Virus record (IMG/VR): IMGVR_UViG_3300030101_000849
Span: 1 to 28,736 of that record
Strand: one strand, 5' to 3'
Length of the DNA stretch: 28,736 bases
DNA from: a virus
The position numbers and the translations under genes are program-made. Every line of letters starts with the position of its first letter. The stretch's first letter is position 1. A model generated the notes under the pieces. The model ran no database searches, had not been told where the DNA came from, and worked only from the letters and a program-made list of their open reading frames with translations. Shown in pieces: positions 1,481 to 28,736 of this stretch.

Positions 1481-4400
1481 ATGGCAAAAAGAGAAATGAC
1501 AGCAAGAGAAGCCAAACAAAACCTTGAACCTTTTGGTTACAAAGGTCCTGCTAAGTGGGCATCAATAGATGCTTTTGTAGAGGCTAATCCTAGAGCTAAA
1601 GCTGCAGTTACTGCTAACAAAGGAATGTTTGTACAAAGTGAAGCACTAGGTTTTGCACAAGGTGGAGCAGTAGAACCATCTGAAGAAGCTATCAAGAAAC
1701 TAGCTGACCTACAATACTTGTCGTATAAAACTGGTGTGTCTACTGAAGAGTTTAGAGCTGCAAAAGAAGCTGTTGGTATTAACCCTGATCACATGACTTT
1801 TGATGAAAACAAACGTGATGAATATGATCCTAATGCTGTTACAGATTTACTAGCTAAGTATGGTTATACTAATAGTGGTAATCCACTAGAATTTTATGGA
1901 GACAATAAAGCTACAGATCCTGTTGCTAATGCTTTTGTTGAAAAGGATAAACAAAAAGGAACATCTATTAATAATAACGCAGCTAATAAACTTTTTGCAG
2001 AACAAGTTATGGCTGATCAAGGTATTACTGCAGATCAAACTAGTTATGTAACTGTTGGTGAAATGGGTATGACTCTTGATGATCTCAAGAAGGGTTATCA
2101 AAGCAGTATACAAATTGCAAATGATGCTTGGGGTAATAGTGGTTATGAACCAGAAGGCACAGACATATTAGATACAGTTTATTCTCCAACAAAACCTAAA
2201 CCAGATCCTACTCCCACTACTCCTCTTCCTACTAGTATTCCAATAACACCTAATCCACAAGAGGTAGAACAGGCTAAAAAAATATTTGGAGCTGATGGTA
2301 AAGTTACATTACCCACTGGTTATGAACAGCCTGTACAAAAAATGGTTATGCCACAACCTTTTCAACCTACTTCTCCTGTCGCAGGAGTAACAACTGCACA
2401 AGCTCAAACCTTTGGCAATAATCAAGGACAACAGTTTGCAAAGAGAGCTATAGATCAGGCTCAGTTAATTCAACCACAAACACTAGCAGAAAAAACAGCT
2501 GCAGGTATAGCACCTACAATACAGCAAAGACTTTATAGAAATCCACAAGGTATGACTACGTATGTTACAGGAACAGTTAGTCCTGATGGTAAGTTTTCTC
2601 CTACTACTCCTGTACCACAAGGATATACACAAGCTCAACAAATGCAAACAGGTGGTGTGGCTACTCAGAAATTTACTATTCCTAAAGTTGGGGTAGAAGC
2701 AAGTGGAGAAAAGAAAGAAAGTGTAATAGAGGGACAACCACCTGTAATAACACAACCCTACTACCCCTCTGTTACTCCCGAAGAAATAACTACACCAATT
2801 TATACACCACCTACAGTGTCAACAGATTCAAAAAATCCTACAGTTAATGTTGGTGGACAACAGTTAACAAAAGAGCAAGTAGCTCAAGGACAAGCAGATC
2901 TTACAGCAGGTGCAGTGTTAAATCCTGCAGGTACAGTTGCTGCTGCTCCTGTTGCTAATATTAATCCTGATGCATCAGGCACTGTATTATCAGCTACTAC
3001 AGGTCAAGCATTAGGCACTGCTCCTATCGTTACTACTCCTGCACAAGTATCTACAGCTGCTACAGCAGATAAACCATCTGATGCTAAAGCTACTACTGCT
3101 GATCTTCAGAAAGCACAAACATCTGTAACAGCAGCACTAGAAGGTGGTCTTGATCCACAACTTATGATAGATAGTGTTGATGGTATTGGTGATGCTAACT
3201 ATGATCCTAAGACTGGCAAGATAAAAATAAAACAACAGATTGCTGTACCTATAAGTCCGGGTGAAGATCCAAAATTTGAAACTATAGAACAAGAAGTAAC
3301 ACCTGAGCAATTTGCAAATCAATATGGGCTTAATACTAAAGACTTTACATCAGGTGGAGTACAAGCTGCTACCTCTACAGGTCCTACTAAAAAAGTTGTA
3401 GGTCAAACAAAAACTGATACTGCTGTTTCAGATTTAGATGCAGCTCAGATAGATCAAGCTCAAACAGTAAAAGAAATAGATGATCGTAAACTTGAAGCAG
3501 GAGAAACTGTATCAGGTAGTGCTGTTGATCAAACTAAAGTAGGAGAAGCATTTGGTACTGGTGAAGTAAAAGCTGCATCTGTACAAGATGAACTGACTAC
3601 TTTAATGGGACAGTTTGAAGGAGGTAATACACCATCTTGGGCTGCAGGAGCTATGCGTAAAGCAAACATGCTGATGGCTTCAAGAGGTTTAGGTGCATCA
3701 AGTATGGCAGGTCAAGCTGTAATACAAGCTGCAATGGAAGCTGCATTACCAATAGCACAGATTGATACTGCTAATAAACAACAGATGGCTCTAGCTAAAG
3801 CTGAACAAAGAGCTAAGTTTTTACAGCAAGATTTTGATCAAGCTTTTCAAGCTAAGGTTATAAATGCATCTAAGGTTAGTGAGATTGCTAACATGAACTT
3901 TAATGCTGATCAACAGGTAGCATTAGAGAATGCTAAGATGGCACAGACAGTTGATCTACAAAATCTTAATAATAAACAAGCATTAGTAATGGCTGAAGCT
4001 GCACAGTTATCTCAACTTGAAACACAAGGTTTAAGTAATTTACAACAAGCTCAAGTAGAGAATGCTAAAAACTTTTTACAAATAGATATGGCTAATCTTA
4101 ATAATGAACAACAAACAGAGATATTTAAAGCTCAAACAATAGCTAATACTATTTTAAGTGATACAGCTGCAGCTAATGCAAACGAACAGTTTAATGCTTC
4201 AAGTCAGATGCAGGTAGATCAATTTAATAATACTATGCAATCTCAACTTAATCAGTTTAACTCTGCACAACTTAATGCTATGAATCAGTTTAATGCAGGT
4301 GAAGCTAATGCAATACAAAAGTTTAACTCAGAGTTACAAGCAGGTAGAGAACAGTTCAATGCTCAAATGTATGCACAGATAGCACAAGCTAATGCTAAGT

Positions 4401-6164: not shown

Positions 6165-7388
6165 ATGGTTAAATTAACAGCAGTAGGTTTAAGAAACTAC
6201 ATAGATAAAACAAGAGCAAGAAGAGATGCTAGAGAAAAAGCCGTTATGGATATTTATGCTAAATATGGTAGCTCAGGTTTAAGTAAAATATTTCCTATGG
6301 GTAGTGGGTCTTCCAACATAAGTAGAACAAAAGAACAAAAACCAACTGTAGGGTTTTCTAAAATAAAAAGAGATAGTTTAAATCCAGTATTTACAGAACA
6401 AGATGTTAGTATGGAAGAAGCAGGTTATTTAAAACTACTTAGAAAACCTCCCTATAATATAAGTGATGAAACTGTTGCCAGACTTATAGCTAATGGTGAT
6501 CCTACTATTTTTAAAAGGATGTATGAAAAAGCTCAAGAAAAAGCTAGATATTATGAAGGGGAATTAGGAGCAGCAGCACCTGAAAGTATCATAAGCACTA
6601 TTTTAGAAAAATCTGCAGAAGTTCCTGCAAGAGCAGGTGGTAAATTAAATATAGATAAAATAGAATCTTATATAGGTAGAGAGATGGACTCTATGATGAA
6701 GTCTATTATTCAATCACAAAATATTAGTAGAGGTCAAGTAGTATTAGGTGATACTTTTTTAACAAAAGATCTTGGACCTGAGAAAGCAAAACCTTATATT
6801 GATGCAGCTGTTAGTTATTCAATTATGTTTGCACAAAACGCTGATAAAAGAATAAAAGATGAGTTACAAAAACTTACACTGATAGCACAACCTAAAGATC
6901 AAAATGTAAGGGGTCGTGCTTTAACAGATAAAGAACTAGCTCAACAAAAGTTTTTAATAAATTACGGACAGCAATTGGAAGATGCTACTAATTTTTATAA
7001 AGAAACCGATAATCCTATAAGATTGTTTGGGTTATATGGTATAACTGGTTTAATGGCTGAGGCTGAAAGAATGCCTAGGTTATTAAATGAACCTCTTGTA
7101 AAACAGTATACGGGACTATATGGTGGTGTAGCAGGGGAAGATTCTAGAATGATATTAGAGATTCCTGTATTTCGTGATGAAATAGAAAATGTGCAAGCAG
7201 TATTATTAGATGGATACAAACCTTCACAAATACCTCCGTCTCAACAAAGTTTTTTACACAGATTATTATATGGAGGTATTCTTCATAGGGATCAGGTTAT
7301 ACAACTAATTGCAGGAGAAAATTTTAGTGATGAGACTACTATAGGTATGAAATTAGGTAATCCTTTTTCTAAAAACAAGAGATTTTAA
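6165..7388 (+). CDS. Virion-associated protein of unknown function
   Basis: 407 residues, starting one base after the previous stop, with GCGAGGA as ribosome site. It is rich in charged helices with scattered hydrophobic stretches, with no signal peptide and no convincing membrane segment. The N-terminus is basic (about 12 Arg/Lys in the first 30 residues), which would suit nucleic acid contact or packing inside the capsid. The stop TAA is directly followed by the ATG of the 1221-residue gene with no spacer, so the pair is likely co-translated. I do not recognise the family. A role as an internal virion partner of the next protein is inferred from this tight linkage. Confidence 0.6.
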   Translation: MVKLTAVGLRNYIDKTRARRDAREKAVMDIYAKYGSSGLSKIFPMGSGSSNISRTKEQKPTVGFSKIKRDSLNPVFTEQDVSMEEAGYLKLLRKPPYNISDETVARLIANGDPTIFKRMYEKAQEKARYYEGELGAAAPESIISTILEKSAEVPARAGGKLNIDKIESYIGREMDSMMKSIIQSQNISRGQVVLGDTFLTKDLGPEKAKPYIDAAVSYSIMFAQNADKRIKDELQKLTLIAQPKDQNVRGRALTDKELAQQKFLINYGQQLEDATNFYKETDNPIRLFGLYGITGLMAEAERMPRLLNEPLVKQYTGLYGGVAGEDSRMILEIPVFRDEIENVQAVLLDGYKPSQIPPSQQSFLHRLLYGGILHRDQVIQLIAGENFSDETTIGMKLGNPFSKNKRF

Positions 7389-10300
7389 ATGGAAATAGAT
7401 TGGAATAAATTAACATCAGAAACAAATAATTATCCACTGCCTATTACTGGTGGTAATATTACTAGTGAAGAAGAAGATCAACCTGTTTATGTTCCTGTTG
7501 AACTTGATGAAACAGCTTATGAAGATTTAGATAAAATATTTGCTACTGATTATAATAATAAAAGATTAACTAAAGAACAAATACTTAATGACAGAAGATT
7601 TGTTAATGTTATTAGAAATAATTTATCAGCAAGATATACACCGGGTGATACATTAACTAGAGCTAAAAGAGTTGGTGTTGGTTTAGCAGGTGGTGATTTT
7701 GGTGGTATCTATGGTAGAGATTACATGAATATGGATGCTGAAAGATTATTTGAGATATGGCAAAACTATCAAAGATCTTTTAGTGCAGGTCAAACTGTTA
7801 CTGTTGGTAATGAAATAGCATATAGTATGAATGCTTCAGATGATACCAAAGTTAAGTTAGGTGCAGGTTATAAATTATTTGATCAGATGACTAATGCTTT
7901 TACTGGCGATGGTAGTTGGGCAGAGATGGCTGATGCTACTTGGGATTATGCAAAAGCAGGTGTTTATGATCCTGCAACACTATTAGGTTTTGGGCTTGGA
8001 AAGTTGATGGGTTTTGGTGCTACTAAAACCTCAGCTCAAGCTGCTAAATCTTTAATGAAATCAGCTTACACAGAAGCTATAAAAAAGGGAGCAACTACAT
8101 CAAGTGCTAAAGTAATGATTGGTAATGCTATGAAAAATAGTTTACCTTTCGCTTTTATAGATGCAACTATTGGTGGTGGTATTGATGCTCTTTCTCAAAT
8201 GCAGTTAATAGATGTTGGTGTTCAAGAAGAATATAGTTATGCTCAAACTGCTATCAATGCAGTAGCGCAGATGCTTTCAATACCAATACTTACAGGTATG
8301 GGAGCTACTGTAAAAGAACTTAGATCAAGTGTTTTTAAAGATACTTTTTTAGGCTATCAAAAGTTTGATACAGATTTACTTAATCTTGGTTTTGATGAAG
8401 CTAAAAAGAGAATGAAACAAAGAATGAATACTAATGTTATTGTTGATGCATTAGATGATACTTTTGGTTTAATTAAAGGTGACAGTAAAGATTTTTTAGT
8501 TTGGGATAAAATAAAAGAAAGAGCAAAGAAAAGAATAAAAGGTCAGACAATCACACCTCAAGAACAAATTAATGCTTTTTATAGATATTTATTTTTAGGA
8601 AATCCGGGAGATAAAAACGGAAAAGGTAGAACCAAAGGATTATTTGAAGCACTAAATGATGCAGGTTTTACACCACACCCTGCTATGATAGAACAGTATG
8701 GTAATATTACTGGTGTATATGCAAATGCAATGAAAGAGTTTTTAAGTCCTGCTCAAGTTAAAAAGATAGTAGCAAAGTGGGAAGCAGAGACTGGATATAA
8801 ATTAGATTTTAGTCAGATAAGTTATAAAAATAATGATCCTTCACAACCAAAAATTGAGATTGTCCCATCTTCTAAAGTAACCCCATTGAGTTTATCTTCT
8901 CGTTGGGTACTATCAATAGGGGATGCAGCTGAAAGTTTATGGTTGCCATCTGAATTAAGTAGGTTACAAAAATCAGGAGTTGATGTTAGAGATGCTATAG
9001 ACATTGCAGCTGGGAATGCAGGTAAAGAAGACAGTCCTAAAAGATTTCAGTTTGGTTTATCTGTTTATAAAAGATTGTTAACATCTCACTTATCAACAAC
9101 TGGTGCTAACTTAAAAGGTTTTAAAGGACTGGTTGGTTTAAATACTTATGCTGATTTTTTTACAGGTGCTATTAATTTAAGTCAAAGTAAGTTTTATAAG
9201 TACGGATTAAATGATCCTAAAAAGGCAGAAGAGTTTTATAATAAGTATTATGGTAGTGTTTATGGTGCTTTACGTAGAGGTGTTGATGTTATTTCACCAG
9301 ACATTCCTATAGAATATGCTGATTTAATATTAGATATGAACCCTAAACTTGAAGCCAAATTGTTTAGAGATATAGCAGGTGATGGTGGTGTAAGAGAATC
9401 TTTTGAACATTTTAATTTAGACAAAGCAGATATGATAACTTTTGGTATAGGTAAGGTTATGGATGCTGCAACTAAGGGCGCACAAACTTTAACATTTGTT
9501 AGGCTTCAAGATGATTTAACTAAGCGTTGGTCATTTGGTTCTAACATGAATCAATACATAATGAGAGACTATGGAATGACTCCAGAGCAATTTTTTTCTC
9601 AAGTAGATGTATCAATAGAGATGGCATCAAAGAAGTTTCAAAACTTATTAGACAAAGCTGCATATAGAACAATGAGAGAAACTGCATCTGTTAATTGGTC
9701 AACACTGCCTGCTAAAAATGGTATGAGAGCTGCAGCTAGAGTCTTTGAAAAATTTACAAATACCACACCTGCAGGTTTCGTAGTACCATTTGGAAGTTTT
9801 TTAAATACTACTCTTGCTACTATGGGAGACATGACAGGTATAAACGCTTTTAGAGCTAGTTATAGATCTTTAACTGGAAAGAAAGCTGATTTTGCTGATC
9901 CAGAAGTATCAGAGGCTTTTGGAAAATTTGCTGCATCAATGAGTTTAGTTTCATTAGGAGTTTTTGCTGCAAGAGATAGAATAGATCAAGGATTAAGTTA
10001 CTCTCAAGAAAGAAATAATGAAGTATTAAAAATAGGACCTTACTCTATTGGTGGTGGTCAAGATATGGGTGACATAGAAGATAAAACCTATGATTGGCCT
10101 GTGTCTACTATCAGACTATTATCTCAAATTACTGCACATGCTATAGGAGAAACTAACGATTTTAATGATTTTCAATTTAGAAGAATACCCAAAGATCTTT
10201 TAGCTGAGTTAGCTATTCAAACAGGTGGACAAGCTTTTAGAGACTTGGATATGGCAGGAAGTGTTCTTAAAAATGTAGCTAATAAATTAATGGAGGGTGA

Positions 10301-17032: not shown

Positions 17033-18880
17033 TTAATGTATTTCTGAATAATTTTTTCCAAATTGCACATCAATACCTAGTTGTACATTTAATTTAAGCT
17101 GTTCATTTAACTTATCAACTGCCCAATATAATGCATTTTTATGCTCCCTCTCTTCGCCTAAAGGAACTACGTTAATACTTTCATCATGGAACTGACCCAC
17201 AATGTTTGGTCTTTTAGTACGATAGAATGCTACCCACTTGTCAAAGCAGTAAGATCCTGTGCTTTGATTGATAGTAGAGAATGCATCTTTCTCATAGCGA
17301 AGACTATGCCAAAACTTACTAACTGGATTTTGTATCCACATCTCACCTGATACTCTTCGTATTGGTTGAGACTCAGAGAAAGCTTTAACAGACCAATTTC
17401 TTTTCCAGTAAGCATCAAGAAGTTCTTGTGCTTCACGTACAGACATACCTGTCTCTCTGGATAATTTAGCTGCACCTACACCATAGGTTGCAGAATAATT
17501 AACTACTTTAAAATTCTTTCGTAGTGACTTCAAATCTTTTTCACCACTATTATGTTTATTAATATCATCTTGTGTAATCTTACCTGCATGTTTAGCAAGG
17601 TCTAAGTGTGGATCAAAACCATCTCTTGACATTTCTTCTACATACTTTGGATCGTATGGTTTCATGTAGTGTCTTTTGGTAGTGTCTTCAAGAGAGGTCA
17701 TATCAGCACCACACAATACAGTTTCATTAGGTGCTATCAAACAACTACGTATTTCTCTACCCCAAGGCTTATCAACTCCGGGAAGATTAACAAGAGGTTT
17801 CTTATGTTTAAATCTAAATGTATTAGTAAGACCATCTATCTCTGCTTTGAGATAACCATCTTGTTCACACTCAACAAAGCCATTAAAGATACCTAGTCTA
17901 TGTTGTATAATAGTAAGACCCTCTAATGTTGCAACAGCTGAGTTCTTTTCTATTAATAACTTTACAGACTCTGTAAGCTCACCATTTTTTCTGACTTGTT
18001 CTACTTTCTTTTCTTCGCCAGTTTCTTTATTCTTGTTATACTTATAGGTACATGGCTTCCAACCCAAAGACTTTAACCAATCCTTTACTTGATCGGTAGA
18101 GTTAGGATTAGCATCTTCTGCACCTTTTACTACTGTTACTTCACCATTATATCCTTCAGGTAAACCATACTCTTCTAGTAAAGAGTACCATCTCTTACCA
18201 TGAGAAGATAGAGAACCATCTTTTTTGAAACAAACTTTAGGTTTAGTTTGTACTCTGTATAATTTTCTCATTGGCATTGCGTCAGATAGTTCTGAAACTT
18301 TTTCTGCTTGTAAAGAAAGTAATTTATTAACACAAGACTTAGCCATATTTGTATCTAACTTCCAACCTTGTTGTTCAGCTTCTTTCGCACAATCCATTTT
18401 AAACTCTAAGTACCTGAAGAACTTATCTAATTGATACTTATCTTTATATAAATGTAGAAACCTTTTTAACAGGTTTGTCCACAATGCATCTGTTATCATT
18501 ACATCATTAGTACATCTATCAACATACTCTTGTAGAGATAGGTTCTCCCAATCATCTATCTTTAGTTTAGGTATACCAAAGTCAGTAAAGAAACTATCAA
18601 GTCCATGCTTAGGTCTAGTTGGATTAAGAACCCAAGACATAGGCAGAGTATCAAAACGTCTGGCAGTAATATTAATATCTAGTATACGTTCTAATACTGG
18701 CACATCATAACGTATGATATTGTGACCTACTAATCCTTGAGCAGATAACAATACATCTCGCATGTAATTGTAGTCATCTGTAGCAGTACACTTAGATACC
18801 TCATCATCTGTATCTCTGAATACCATACAGTGTATCTTGTCTGGATTAATACCATTAGTTTCAATATCAAATATTATCAT
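17033..18880 (-). CDS. polA: Family A DNA polymerase with 3'-5' exonuclease domain
   Basis: 615 residues, T7 gp5-like. The exonuclease domain shows DIET (Asp5, Glu7), GHNIIRYD (about 52-59) and a CTNDV segment with Asp126. Polymerase motif A is GADMTSLED (Asp393, Glu398). Motif B is R454-x3-K458-x3-Y462-x3-YG. Motif C is HDE (565-567). Position 462, equivalent to E. coli Pol I Phe762, is Tyr, as in T7 polymerase. Length is shorter than T7 gp5 (704). It overlaps the primase-helicase gene by four bases (ATGA), so the two are translationally coupled. It replicates the phage genome; whether it uses thioredoxin as processivity factor cannot be judged. Confidence 0.95.
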   Translation of the reverse strand: MIIFDIETNGINPDKIHCMVFRDTDDEVSKCTATDDYNYMRDVLLSAQGLVGHNIIRYDVPVLERILDINITARRFDTLPMSWVLNPTRPKHGLDSFFTDFGIPKLKIDDWENLSLQEYVDRCTNDVMITDALWTNLLKRFLHLYKDKYQLDKFFRYLEFKMDCAKEAEQQGWKLDTNMAKSCVNKLLSLQAEKVSELSDAMPMRKLYRVQTKPKVCFKKDGSLSSHGKRWYSLLEEYGLPEGYNGEVTVVKGAEDANPNSTDQVKDWLKSLGWKPCTYKYNKNKETGEEKKVEQVRKNGELTESVKLLIEKNSAVATLEGLTIIQHRLGIFNGFVECEQDGYLKAEIDGLTNTFRFKHKKPLVNLPGVDKPWGREIRSCLIAPNETVLCGADMTSLEDTTKRHYMKPYDPKYVEEMSRDGFDPHLDLAKHAGKITQDDINKHNSGEKDLKSLRKNFKVVNYSATYGVGAAKLSRETGMSVREAQELLDAYWKRNWSVKAFSESQPIRRVSGEMWIQNPVSKFWHSLRYEKDAFSTINQSTGSYCFDKWVAFYRTKRPNIVGQFHDESINVVPLGEEREHKNALYWAVDKLNEQLKLNVQLGIDVQFGKNYSEIH

Positions 18881-20475
18881 GCAGCTTCTTCTCTCCCTAT
18901 GACAACCTCTTCAGTTAGGATAGTAGTATCAGGATTGTAGTATACTGTACCTGCATAGCCTAACTTAGCGAATGGTCTATTTTTATCGACAATAAAGGTA
19001 GTAGTATTTTGTACTATCTCATCTTCACTTTCTATATCTCTTTCAATCTTGATACATATAATAGCTTCCTCTTCAAGTGATGATGCATACTTAGTTCTAC
19101 CATCATCATTGACTTGTGATATAAATACCACACCTATATTTAATTCTTTGGATAGCTGTGCCATTCTTGCTCCAAGAGATGTAAGCACAGAGGTAGCACC
19201 ATCTACACCTGATTGACTAAGGTATGCTAGTCTTTGAACATGGTCTACAAAGATATACTCTGCACCATATACAGTTGCAGCTAGTCTAGTATACTCTAAT
19301 AGTTTGAGTGGATCATCATGTGACCTCATCTCAAATACAACTGTACGTTCACCCTCTGTAGCATCCTTTGCAGCTTTTATAACATCTTCTTCTGATATTC
19401 TATTTTCTTTTGCATCATCTTTAGTTCTGACATTAACACCAAGATGATACGTAGCCATAGCTCTGTAGGTAGTAGACTTCATCTCTTCCATGTGCAGTAA
19501 AGCTATACGTGTGTTAGGATTTTTAAGTAGTCCAGTCTCAAAGTATCTTACTACCTCTGTCTTACCTGTACCTCTTGGTGCTTTGATAAATGTAAGACCA
19601 CCTTTAACAACACCACGTATCTTATCATCAAGTCCAGAATGTCCTGTAGGTATGTAATCGTATGGACTCTCTGTAAGTATGGCTTGTTCTACCTCTTCAT
19701 CAGAACAAAAGAAGTTTTCCGGTGAGTATCTCTGTGGCTTTTGAGCTGCCCAATAAAGAGGTTCAATGTCATCTGCTTCAAGAAACTCGTTAGCATCTTT
19801 ATACTTAGACATTGGTACATAGTAAAACTTTTCTGGCAATGATTCATAGATTCTTTCAGCAGCTCGTCTACCTGCTTCATCAAGCTCACCTGCGTAGATT
19901 ACTTCTTTAAACGCATTGAGATAGTTAAAGTTATTCTTAATGAACTTTTCACCAATAGATGCAGATGGCAAAGACTTAACAGGAAACTTCTGTCTTAGTA
20001 TCTGATATAAACTAGCTGCATCAAATTCACCCTCAGTAATATAAATTCTGTGTGATGATCCTTGATTAAACTCAGGACCAAACAGTTCATTCATACCCAC
20101 ACCCCTGTCTTTTATCCAAGACTTAGACTTGTCATTGTAGTCTCTATACTTAACAGTGTGTGGATACTTGTAGGCATAACGAATAGGATTCTCGTTCTTG
20201 TCAGTTTGTATTTGTATACCATAAAGTTTACAAACTTCAGGATCAATACTACGTATACCATCAAAAGTCATTCCACTTACTTCTATGTCCATTACATTTA
20301 CTCTCCTCTTTACAGGGTATCTATGTTCAACCCAATCATATGTACTCAATTTTGTTTTAGATGGATAGGACTCACCACAACTATGACAATATCCATACCC
20401 ATCATTGTGCCAGTTGAATGCATCAGATGATCCACAATCTATATACGGACATGGTTGATGTGGGTTATCGTTCAT
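18877..20475 (-). CDS. Bifunctional DNA primase-helicase, T7 gp4-like
   Basis: 532 residues. The N-terminus has a zinc-binding primase ribbon with Cys9, Cys14, Cys30 and Cys33. A Toprim fold follows with YITEGEFDA (Glu148) and AGELDEAGRRAA (about 195-206). The RecA-like helicase has Walker A APRGTGKTE (about 299-307), Walker B YIFVDHVQRL (Asp411) and FISQVND (sensor Gln454), and ends with the DnaB-type EREI/DKNRPFAK region. It unwinds the fork and makes primers for the coupled DNA polymerase. It overlaps both neighbours by four bases (ATGA). The zinc site is C-x4-C rather than C-x2-C in its first pair. Confidence 0.93.
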   Translation of the reverse strand: MNDNPHQPCPYIDCGSSDAFNWHNDGYGYCHSCGESYPSKTKLSTYDWVEHRYPVKRRVNVMDIEVSGMTFDGIRSIDPEVCKLYGIQIQTDKNENPIRYAYKYPHTVKYRDYNDKSKSWIKDRGVGMNELFGPEFNQGSSHRIYITEGEFDAASLYQILRQKFPVKSLPSASIGEKFIKNNFNYLNAFKEVIYAGELDEAGRRAAERIYESLPEKFYYVPMSKYKDANEFLEADDIEPLYWAAQKPQRYSPENFFCSDEEVEQAILTESPYDYIPTGHSGLDDKIRGVVKGGLTFIKAPRGTGKTEVVRYFETGLLKNPNTRIALLHMEEMKSTTYRAMATYHLGVNVRTKDDAKENRISEEDVIKAAKDATEGERTVVFEMRSHDDPLKLLEYTRLAATVYGAEYIFVDHVQRLAYLSQSGVDGATSVLTSLGARMAQLSKELNIGVVFISQVNDDGRTKYASSLEEEAIICIKIERDIESEDEIVQNTTTFIVDKNRPFAKLGYAGTVYYNPDTTILTEEVVIGREEAA

Positions 20476-26560: not shown

Positions 26561-26686
26561 TCATTTAATTATAATAGGGTACAAAAACCCACTCATACCG
26601 AATAGATTAAGTACCAACTCAATAAGGTATACCACCACTATAATAATGATACAATACCTTAATCTTCCATAAACATAATAATCCAT
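26561..26686 (-). CDS. Tiny membrane protein (41 residues)
   Basis: ATG 26684-26686 has GGAG six bases upstream. The product begins MDYYVYGRLRY and continues with a hydrophobic stretch IIIIVVVYLIELVLNLF, a clear membrane segment, then GMSGFLYP. The TGA stop overlaps the first two bases of the ATG 26562-26564 and precedes the ribosome site of the next gene. A positively charged residue pair before the segment fits the positive-inside rule. One more example of small membrane proteins in this early block. Function unknown. Confidence 0.55.
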   Translation of the reverse strand: MDYYVYGRLRYCIIIIVVVYLIELVLNLFGMSGFLYPIIIK

Positions 26687-26915: not shown

Positions 26916-27467
26916 TTACTTAGTCATTAAGTATTCATTGATAAGTTTGTAAAAATCCATATCAATGTTATCTACTTTATGCTTTTCGCTATCTTTCTCA
27001 GCACCTTGTAAAGCTTTCTCAATAATTGCTTTTGTTTGGTTAGCAATTTTAAGAGTATCAACACCCTTGTATTCAGCTTCTTTTGTGAAAGTAGACCAAG
27101 TATTTTGATGTGCAGTCACCACATCATCATAAGATACCTTAGTCTGTTTCTTATTATATGTGAAAAGAGATTTTCCATCATCACCCTTTACCCATTGAAA
27201 ACCACAATGTGCTTCAATCCATGCTTTGATTGCGTTATTGCGTACTGCTGATCCATCAAGCTCTAATACTAGAGTATTCATAAATCTGCAAGCAGTGCCT
27301 ACATCACCTGATTGATGCCAACGTAACATCACTTTAGTCAATACTGATTGAATAGCATTATTAACAGTTTTTACTTTTGATTTTACTGCAATAATATCTT
27401 TCTCAATCATTGCATCAGTTACAGTTACATTTAAAGTTTTTGGTAATTTTACGTTTGATTTAGTCAT
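26916..27467 (-). CDS. First early gene: helical protein of unknown function
   Basis: 183 residues from ATG 27465-27467, chosen for the GAGGAG upstream; an in-frame TTG-type start to 27521 is not supported. It is almost all helical and mixed-charge, with Trp-containing segments (VMLRWHQSGDVGTACRFMN, AIKAWIEAHCGFQWVKG) and a Lys/Asp-rich C-terminus. Good candidate promoter at 27539-27567, giving it its own transcript as the first gene of the leftward arm. I do not recognise the family. Early-gene position and high charge make a DNA- or host-protein-binding role possible. Confidence 0.7.
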   Translation of the reverse strand: MTKSNVKLPKTLNVTVTDAMIEKDIIAVKSKVKTVNNAIQSVLTKVMLRWHQSGDVGTACRFMNTLVLELDGSAVRNNAIKAWIEAHCGFQWVKGDDGKSLFTYNKKQTKVSYDDVVTAHQNTWSTFTKEAEYKGVDTLKIANQTKAIIEKALQGAEKDSEKHKVDNIDMDFYKLINEYLMTK

Positions 27468-27538
27468 AATTTTTATCTCCTCATAATATGACAAATATTG
27501 CATACCATCATTGATATACAATACAATTCATACATCAC

Positions 27539-27567
27539 ATTATAAGAAACTTGAAAGGTGCGATAAA
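27539..27567 (-). promoter_or_regulatory. Candidate early leftward promoter
   Basis: On the - strand, TATAAT (27539-27544, perfect) is 17 bases from TTTATC (27562-27567, weak -35). It lies about 70 bases before the 183-residue gene and overlaps one arm of a long inverted repeat, which suggests regulation by a protein bound at the -35 region. Confidence 0.5.
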
Positions 27568-27654
27568 CAAAGATTAGACATAACATACTAAGAGTGTAAA
27601 CAATCAAGCCATACACTAATAGCGTACTGCTAAACACCTCTTTGCTATCGCACC
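27557..27654. repeat. Long-range inverted repeat upstream of the first early gene
   Basis: GGTGCGATA (27557-27565) and TATCGCACC (27646-27654) are perfect complements, extended by CAAAG (27568-27572) and CTTTG (27640-27644), and enclose a second pair AGTGTA (27593-27598) / TACACT (27612-27617). The left arm overlaps the -35 region of the early promoter. It could be paired protein sites or a structured RNA. Confidence 0.6.
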
Positions 27655-27915
27655 TAATACTGCCGACCCACTCGCTTTTTTGCATACCTTTAACGTATAC
27701 CATACTTTGATAGTAACTAGCACTTCTGTGGACTGTCTGATTACAGGTTACTTGTGGTTAGCTTTCAACCCGATATCAGCAATATAAGACTACTCTATTT
27801 TTTATAGGGAAAGTTTTATGAGTAGTTATAGAAAACCCTATTATCTTATTATATATAAATCTAAAATTTCTGTTTTTATAAAATCCTTTTGTTGTCGTTG
27901 TTAAGTGACAGATAA

Positions 27916-27942
27916 TAACCCTTAAAAACTTTACAAGGGTTA
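27916..27942. repeat. Eight-base hairpin TAACCCTT / AAGGGTTA
   Basis: Arms at 27916-27923 and 27935-27942 with an 11-base loop. The + strand continues into an A-run and then TTTAACTTTTTT, so it is at best a weak terminator. It lies in the control region with no gene next to it. Confidence 0.4.
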
Positions 27943-28129
27943 ACAATAAAAAAAATTTAACTTTTTTGTAAAATAGTTGTTAAGTTATTGATATTAAAGA
28001 GAAATAAATTTTTACATTACGTTACGTCAACTAATAAAATAAATTAATATTATTAGTGTAGTTTAGAATAATTCTAAATAGTTTTGATTAGTGTACAATA
28101 TTCTAAACAATAGGTAATTTTTAAATAAA

Positions 28130-28230
28130 TAGTTTAGCATTAAACTAAATTAATGAGATAGTTTAACATTAAACTAATTTGATGCAGTATAATCTAATGA
28201 TAAACTAAATAATGATTTAATACTAAACTA
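28130..28230. repeat. Array of TAGTTTA-N4-TAAACTA palindromes
   Basis: Two near-perfect 18-base copies (28130-28147, 28159-28176) and two with degenerate left halves (28190-28207, 28213-28230). All four right halves are exactly TAAACTA. Start-to-start offsets are 29, 31 and 23 bases. A related palindrome, TTTAGAAT-A-ATTCTAAA, is at 28062-28078. Typical of operator clusters or replication-initiator sites; the binding protein is unknown. Confidence 0.7.
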
Positions 28231-28358
28231 AAAATGTAATTCTTTTAGGGATATAGCCACAAAAACACTAAAAAGTGATGCGATATCAATTATTTATAGT
28301 CGTTTTATAATCTTATATTCTAAAAGTTATCTAATAAAATCAAATACTTAGCTAAAAA

Positions 28359-28425
28359 TGTCAAGAACTTGACGAATATGTCAATATTTTGACGCAACTC
28401 CTCATCAAGTGTCAAATTTTTGACA
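28359..28425. promoter_or_regulatory. Triple palindrome TGTCAA-N4-TTGACR
   Basis: Three 16-base sites: TGTCAAGAACTTGACG (28359-28374), TGTCAATATTTTGACG (28379-28394) and TGTCAAATTTTTGACA (28410-28425). Offsets of 20 and 31 bases are near two and three helical turns, so all sites face the same side of the DNA. Arms are fully conserved while the centre varies, as expected for dimer-bound operators. Regulator unknown. Confidence 0.75.
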
Positions 28426-28466
28426 GTAGTTTTAAAGAAAGGTAGGGCGCGCAAGGGCCAGTACCC

Positions 28467-28513
28467 CCCCTCTAGATAGTATGTATACCCAATGACAGAG
28501 GGGTAAATTTTTG
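28467..28513 (+). terminator. Terminator-like hairpin in GC-rich island
   Basis: CCCCTCT (28467-28473) pairs with AGAGGGG (28497-28503) around a 23-base loop, followed by TAAATTTTT on the + strand. The loop is long for a classic terminator. It would separate the arrays to its left from the rightward promoter at 28601. Confidence 0.4.
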
Positions 28514-28600
28514 AAGTGTTAACTACATGGCTGTTAACAAGTAAATTTAGAGTAATTGTTGCAGTAATCCTACATATTTTAATTTATTTTGTATTAATAC

Positions 28601-28630
28601 TTGACAGGGGGGCATAAAGTGTTATATAAT
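28601..28630 (+). promoter_or_regulatory. Consensus rightward sigma-70 promoter
   Basis: On the + strand, TTGACA (28601-28606) and TATAAT (28625-28630), both perfect, are 18 bases apart. Transcription would start near 28637, within tandem ACTTAAAGT boxes, and leave the window to the right. This is the strongest promoter seen in the window and suggests a rightward gene just beyond base 28736. Confidence 0.75.
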
Positions 28631-28632
28631 AT

Positions 28633-28709
28633 ACTTAAAGTAATACTTAAAGTGCTTTATTACTACTTCTTATATAGTATTAATAATATACTTTAAGTAT
28701 ACTTTAACG
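28633..28709. promoter_or_regulatory. ACTTAAAGT box cluster at the rightward promoter
   Basis: ACTTAAAGT occurs at 28633-28641 and 28645-28653 (12 bases apart), its reverse form ACTTTAAGT at 28690-28698, and a degenerate copy at 28701-28709. They lie at and just after the predicted start of the rightward transcript, the place of a repressor operator. The same 9-mer occurs twice before the DoxX-like gene. Confidence 0.55.
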
Positions 28710-28736
28710 TAAATCATAAAAATTTTAATCTTTATT

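Follow-up and report, generated by a model that had tools for sequence, protein, structure and literature searches.

A helically phased palindrome array in the early/late control region of HMO-2011-type marine phages, and its recurrence as a putative operator element among environmental viruses

The stretch of DNA that we analysed (the window; 28,736 nucleotides) is an entire linear contig whose record stops at position 28736, and the DNA to its right was therefore read from a relative, the 56,980-base contig L125. The left part of the window carries rightward structural genes, and the right part carries leftward genes for RNR, MazG, a polymerase, a primase-helicase, an integrase and a peptidase. 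Past the right end of the window, L125 continues with a rightward late/packaging operon comprising small genes, TerS, terminase and portal. The TerL protein of L125 is 71 to 78% identical to those of CRP-2, CRP-9, CRP-13 and HMO-2011, and its module order matches that of HMO-2011. Judging from the TerL identities, the window represents part of a marine podophage of the HMO-2011 type; a nucleotide search returned no near-identical phage records. The polymerase and primase-helicase (17033 to 20475) match HTVC103P rather than HMO-2011 or CRP-2, and the integrase and RNR match HMO-2011 and CRP-2, a pattern by which the replication module is mosaic. An unannotated ORF for a hydrophobic 41-aa product (26561 to 26686, minus strand) is 100% identical in L125 and 95% identical in the contig L124.

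The leftward early and rightward late operons diverge from a noncoding region of ~1.2 kb. The first gene of the early operon (phrog_1448) spans 26916 to 27479 on the minus strand. Directed toward the late operon is a sigma-70 consensus promoter, TTGACA-N18-TATAAT (28601 to 28630, plus strand), which matches at 12 of 12 positions, is the same in L125 and resembles promoters in many HMO-type relatives. The leader of the late transcript includes a stable hairpin at 28637 to 28705 (z −5.3) that is nearly identical in L125 and that may be either a leader RNA or a further operator array. The late leaders of many relatives likewise fold well, with abundant ACTTAAAGT/ACTTTAAGT repeats. An Rfam search of positions 27400 to 28736 gave no match. 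The span 28441 to 28530, a GC-rich element and after it ...AATGACAGAG...GTTAAC..., stands amid the AT-rich region; it is recognisable in four further contigs (L290 to L292 and L295) and is reverse-complemented in CRP-9 and CRP-13. Its candidate roles are cos, origin or regulatory element.

Between the operons, ~180 bp upstream of the late promoter, lie three palindromes without strand assignment that match TGTCAA-N4-TTGACR exactly and are the same in L125. Site 1 is TGTCAAGAACTTGACG (28359 to 28374), site 2 is TGTCAATATTTTGACG (28379 to 28394), offset by 20 from site 1, and site 3 is TGTCAAATTTTTGACA (28410 to 28425), offset by 31 from site 2 and matching on both strands. A motif search found no exact copy elsewhere in the 28,736-base window, and a reversed-pattern control gave no matches over the same span. 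Taking 10.5 bp as one helical turn, the two spacings come to 1.90 and 2.95 turns, which places the three site centres within ~50 degrees on one face of the helix; half-sites are separated by one turn and neighbouring sites by two to three. Thus, the original prediction of three 16-base palindromes with invariant arms, at these offsets and on one face of the DNA, is confirmed in each respect. First-order Markov simulation of the 1.26-kb intergenic region, run 3000 times, never yielded three copies of a palindrome class with 5-bp arms, an N4 gap and at least two G/C per arm; any such class arose in 14 runs. If up to two mismatches are permitted, the whole window holds 15 matches versus a shuffle mean of 6.9. 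This rise is only mild, and the signal therefore resides in the cluster of exact sites.

The array has been preserved in relatives that retain it. An alignment of the window with L125 shows no change at any of the 48 site bases or in either spacer length; inside the array just two substitutions occur, both in spacers, whereas the rest of the intergenic region shows many substitutions and indels. In L125, the array accounts for every occurrence of the motif over 57 kb. All three sites recur, at identical offsets, in a third contig, L293. L293 is also the only array carrier among 66 contigs fetched via the neighbouring late gene, the TGTCAA array being absent from the other 65. Several of those 65 bear a different class of phased palindrome in the same slot. 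The array occupies this slot in 13 HMO-type or related sequences, the window included. The original prediction had called for a motif search of the phage and its relatives and had held that the array should occur at the same place in related phages. The first of these confines the motif to the array in the window and L125 and recovers it in L293, but many relatives are without it; the second has a mixed outcome, with the array in the same slot in those 13 sequences and missing from most of the contigs fetched.

Three palindrome classes, one or two per relative, share this slot: TGTCAA-N4-TTGACR, TAGTTTA-N4-TAAACTA and TTTGTGA.TCACAAA. The window itself contains the second class as a phased array without strand assignment at 28130 to 28230, made up of TAGTTTA-N4-TAAACTA and degenerate copies (28130 to 28147, 28159 to 28176, 28190 to 28207 and 28213 to 28230). 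The TAGTTTA and TGTCAA classes occur together in the window, L125 and L293, and the TAGTTTA and TTTGTGA classes occur in the same order in L279 and are both present in CRP-13. CRP-9 has the TAGTTTA class, and CRP-1, CRP-345 and CRP-603 have the TTTGTGA class. No sequence examined combines TGTCAA with TTTGTGA, and many HMO-2011-type relatives have none of the three. The third class, TTTGTGATCACAAA, shows offsets of ~31 and of 43 to 45 or 75 in CRP-1, CRP-13, CRP-345, CRP-603, L279, L280 and L291. Exact pairs of TAGTTTA-N4-TAAACTA were also present in 24 IMG/VR stretches; the first late gene is the same in nine of them. The exchange of three classes in one slot is what would be expected if the specificity of a regulator changes, and by this comparison operator specificity appears to turn over within a conserved frame.

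The TGTCAA palindrome extends well beyond this phage group. Pairs of sites 18 to 48 bp apart, the criterion for our scan of IMG/VR, are present in at least 120 stretches, versus four for a composition-matched, permuted control palindrome. Among the matches listed, 282 distinct sites yield the consensus SYGTCAA-WWWW-TTGACRS, wherein the palindrome is extended outward and the centre is AT-rich, also in many contigs that are GC-rich. Neighbour offsets among the matches listed (145 distinct) bunch at whole helical turns (Rayleigh R 0.37 at 10.5 bp), with a nominal p of ~2e-9 that is optimistic, as the contigs are partly related and not independent. Intergenic DNA contains 86% of the 399 sites among the matches listed versus 25% of bases. 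In 44 loci among these same matches, the array has a gene for the terminase large subunit no more than 3 kb away, mostly downstream, and early genes often run away from it on the opposite side; some arrays lie between co-directional late genes, after terminase or inside a structural operon. Many of the phages concerned are unrelated, and most are without sign of lysogeny. Four contigs (L034, L101, L018 and L087) hold 7 to 13 dispersed GTCAA-N4-TTGAC sites, a distribution that resembles a regulon more closely than it does one array. Given the excess over the control, the intergenic placement and the whole-turn spacing, the palindrome is, on sequence grounds, a recurrent operator-type element.

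In the window, sites 3 and 2 supply a weak leftward promoter-like match, TTGACA-N18-CAAAAT (28386 to 28415, minus strand; 10 of 12 positions). Its function is doubtful, because the pooled arrays among the matches listed show no enrichment of a −10 box downstream of TTGACA. Sites in these pooled arrays are in general off promoters, and a general role of the TTGACA arms as −35 elements was not supported.

The palindromic form, the one-turn half-sites, the phasing and the intergenic position are hallmarks of operators for dimeric proteins. We give about an even chance to the prediction that the array comprises operators at which a dimeric, probably phage-encoded protein regulates the early/late control region. 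In this reading, a homodimer with sequence-specific DNA binding would occupy the three palindromes and, from there between the two diverging operons, would set early versus late expression, perhaps through cooperative binding, bending or looping at a distance from the late promoter at 28601 to 28630. The binder would probably be a product of the phage itself, encoded at another genomic position and acting in trans. Weighing against regulation is the general separation of the pooled sites from promoters, to which the ~180 bp between the window array and the late promoter conforms. The original description of the array as having the layout of cooperative repressor operators is thus sustained insofar as a phased, dimer-type array is conserved in L125 and L293 and phased in IMG/VR, but not as to the immunity switch attached to it.

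We found no recognisable HTH gene adjoining the array in the window or in L125, in agreement with the original view that the window holds no recognisable repressor. The same prediction had proposed looking for an HTH gene just right of position 28736; in L125 this place is taken by the rightward late operon, with no HTH repressor beside the array. Pfam and PHROGs searches for HTH domains found no regulator among the small early and late gene products of either the window phage or L125, and no regulator family was common to the genes adjoining arrays in viral contigs, where the neighbouring proteins include serine resolvases in three members and HTH_3 in two. Resolvase domains were present in three of 130 array-neighbour proteins scanned, and in L061 a serine resolvase gene (7125 to 7676) lies directly beside the array. 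L125 also encodes an HTH-looking 139-aa protein between its TerS and TerL genes (3128 to 3547, minus strand) that has no significant Pfam or PHROG match. It was rejected as an array-specific binder, because HMO-2011 and CRP-2, both free of the array, have its HTH-looking region in well-conserved form. The first late gene product, tested as a candidate binder, is predicted with modest confidence to be all-helical, and no fold match was found for it. A literature search for the motif found nothing relevant among the papers listed.

Phased palindromes beside a long AT-rich noncoding region could instead be replication-origin iterons, whose cognate phage initiator would bind them and melt the adjoining DNA, as lambda O does at ori. 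Lambdoid O proteins differ in specificity, and a palindrome class that varies between relatives resembles this arrangement. GC skew moreover flips sign at divergent arrays, of which the window array is one. The skew tracks gene direction, however: the sign switches at 18 of 18 divergent arrays versus none of eight co-directional ones, the setting in which an origin and gene direction can be told apart, and this weakens an origin role. The 7 to 13 dispersed sites in some contigs and the want of a recognisable initiator also count against it, as does the position of the array outside any initiator gene, unlike the lambda iterons. We therefore consider an origin function unlikely.

The original prediction had paired the array with the integrase as an immunity switch. 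In such a switch, a CI-like prophage repressor would bind the three sites cooperatively and shut the early operon, deciding between lysis and lysogeny. A tyrosine integrase is indeed present in the window and L125, the different phased classes in the slot could be immunity types, and the array shares with lambda OL/OR its three phased palindromic operators, half-sites about one turn apart and a divergent control region. Unlike at OL/OR, we found no CI/Cro-type gene adjacent to the array in the window or L125, and the nearest strong promoter is ~180 bp away. To the right of the array, L125 has the late operon and no repressor gene. In 24 array-bearing contigs longer than 30 kb, a tyrosine integrase was found in three and not in 21, and a CI/Cro-type HTH_3 domain exceeded the family cut-off in one and not in 23; many array-bearing contigs are short and often fragments, and these gene counts are lower bounds. 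For most of the phages that carry the array, no lysogeny gene turned up. CRP-3, which belongs to the HMO-2011 type and is reported to integrate at tRNA-Met (PMC6918029), has none of the three palindrome classes in the stretch fetched. The claim of an immunity switch is not upheld by these counts, by the late operon to the right or by CRP-3, and we regard it as quite improbable. The stoperators of mycobacteriophage L5, 13-bp sites with a TGTCAAG core, offer another likeness as short repeats in intergenic DNA, but they are asymmetric and scattered, whereas the present array is palindromic and single in both the window and L125.

Host proteins might also be exploited by the phages through these sites. 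The IHF consensus is WATCAANNNNTTR, and the core TCAA-N4-TTR is common to the array sites, but IHF sites are asymmetric and both outer arms are symmetrically conserved here. A host MarR-type regulator is suggested by bacterial GTCAA-N4-TTGAC sites, which have the same arms and are often paired beside MarR-family genes (11 of 61 upstream-facing neighbours). Those sites have different, GC-richer centres (such as CCAG/CTGG in Actinobacteria, among the bacterial loci L137 to L216), and no MarR protein exceeded the cut-off in the 24 long array-bearing phage contigs. The 16-mer is present in just 11 of 115 genomes of Alphaproteobacteria, the class taken as a proxy for the host. This rarity argues against a conserved host regulon, which was not supported on the proxy class, and we deem a host binder distinctly improbable.

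A cosB- or pac-like packaging site bound by the small terminase is very improbable: many arrays do lie 0.3 to 2.6 kb upstream of terminase genes and a conserved GC-rich element adjoins the array, but the role is weakened because TerS is ~5 kb away in L125 and the same TerS family occurs in the array-free HMO-2011 and CRP-2, and furthermore the L125 contig runs continuously through the array, which is hence internal, and some arrays follow terminase or lie within a structural operon.

A broader proposal concerns the palindrome as a whole. It is possible, though we would not call it probable, that SYGTCAA-WWWW-TTGACRS defines a widespread and so far undescribed operator family, deployed as phased arrays of two to seven sites, with three interchangeable classes in the HMO-2011-type slot. 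Such sites would be read by a phage-encoded regulator common to, or exchanged among, unrelated and mostly lytic marine phages, in which it would set the early/late programme. HMO-2011-type phages have been described as a dominant and broadly distributed marine viral group (PMC9038755), and neither a repressor nor a promoter is mentioned in PMC9038755 or PMC6918029. The conserved phased array marks a control region in these phages and provides a concrete bait for finding the regulator, and the exchange of three classes in one slot makes possible a co-variation search for the cognate proteins. Its recurrence in so many IMG/VR stretches, with no integrase in the majority of the longer contigs, suggests that control of this kind is common among environmental phages and that the array is not an isolated immunity region.
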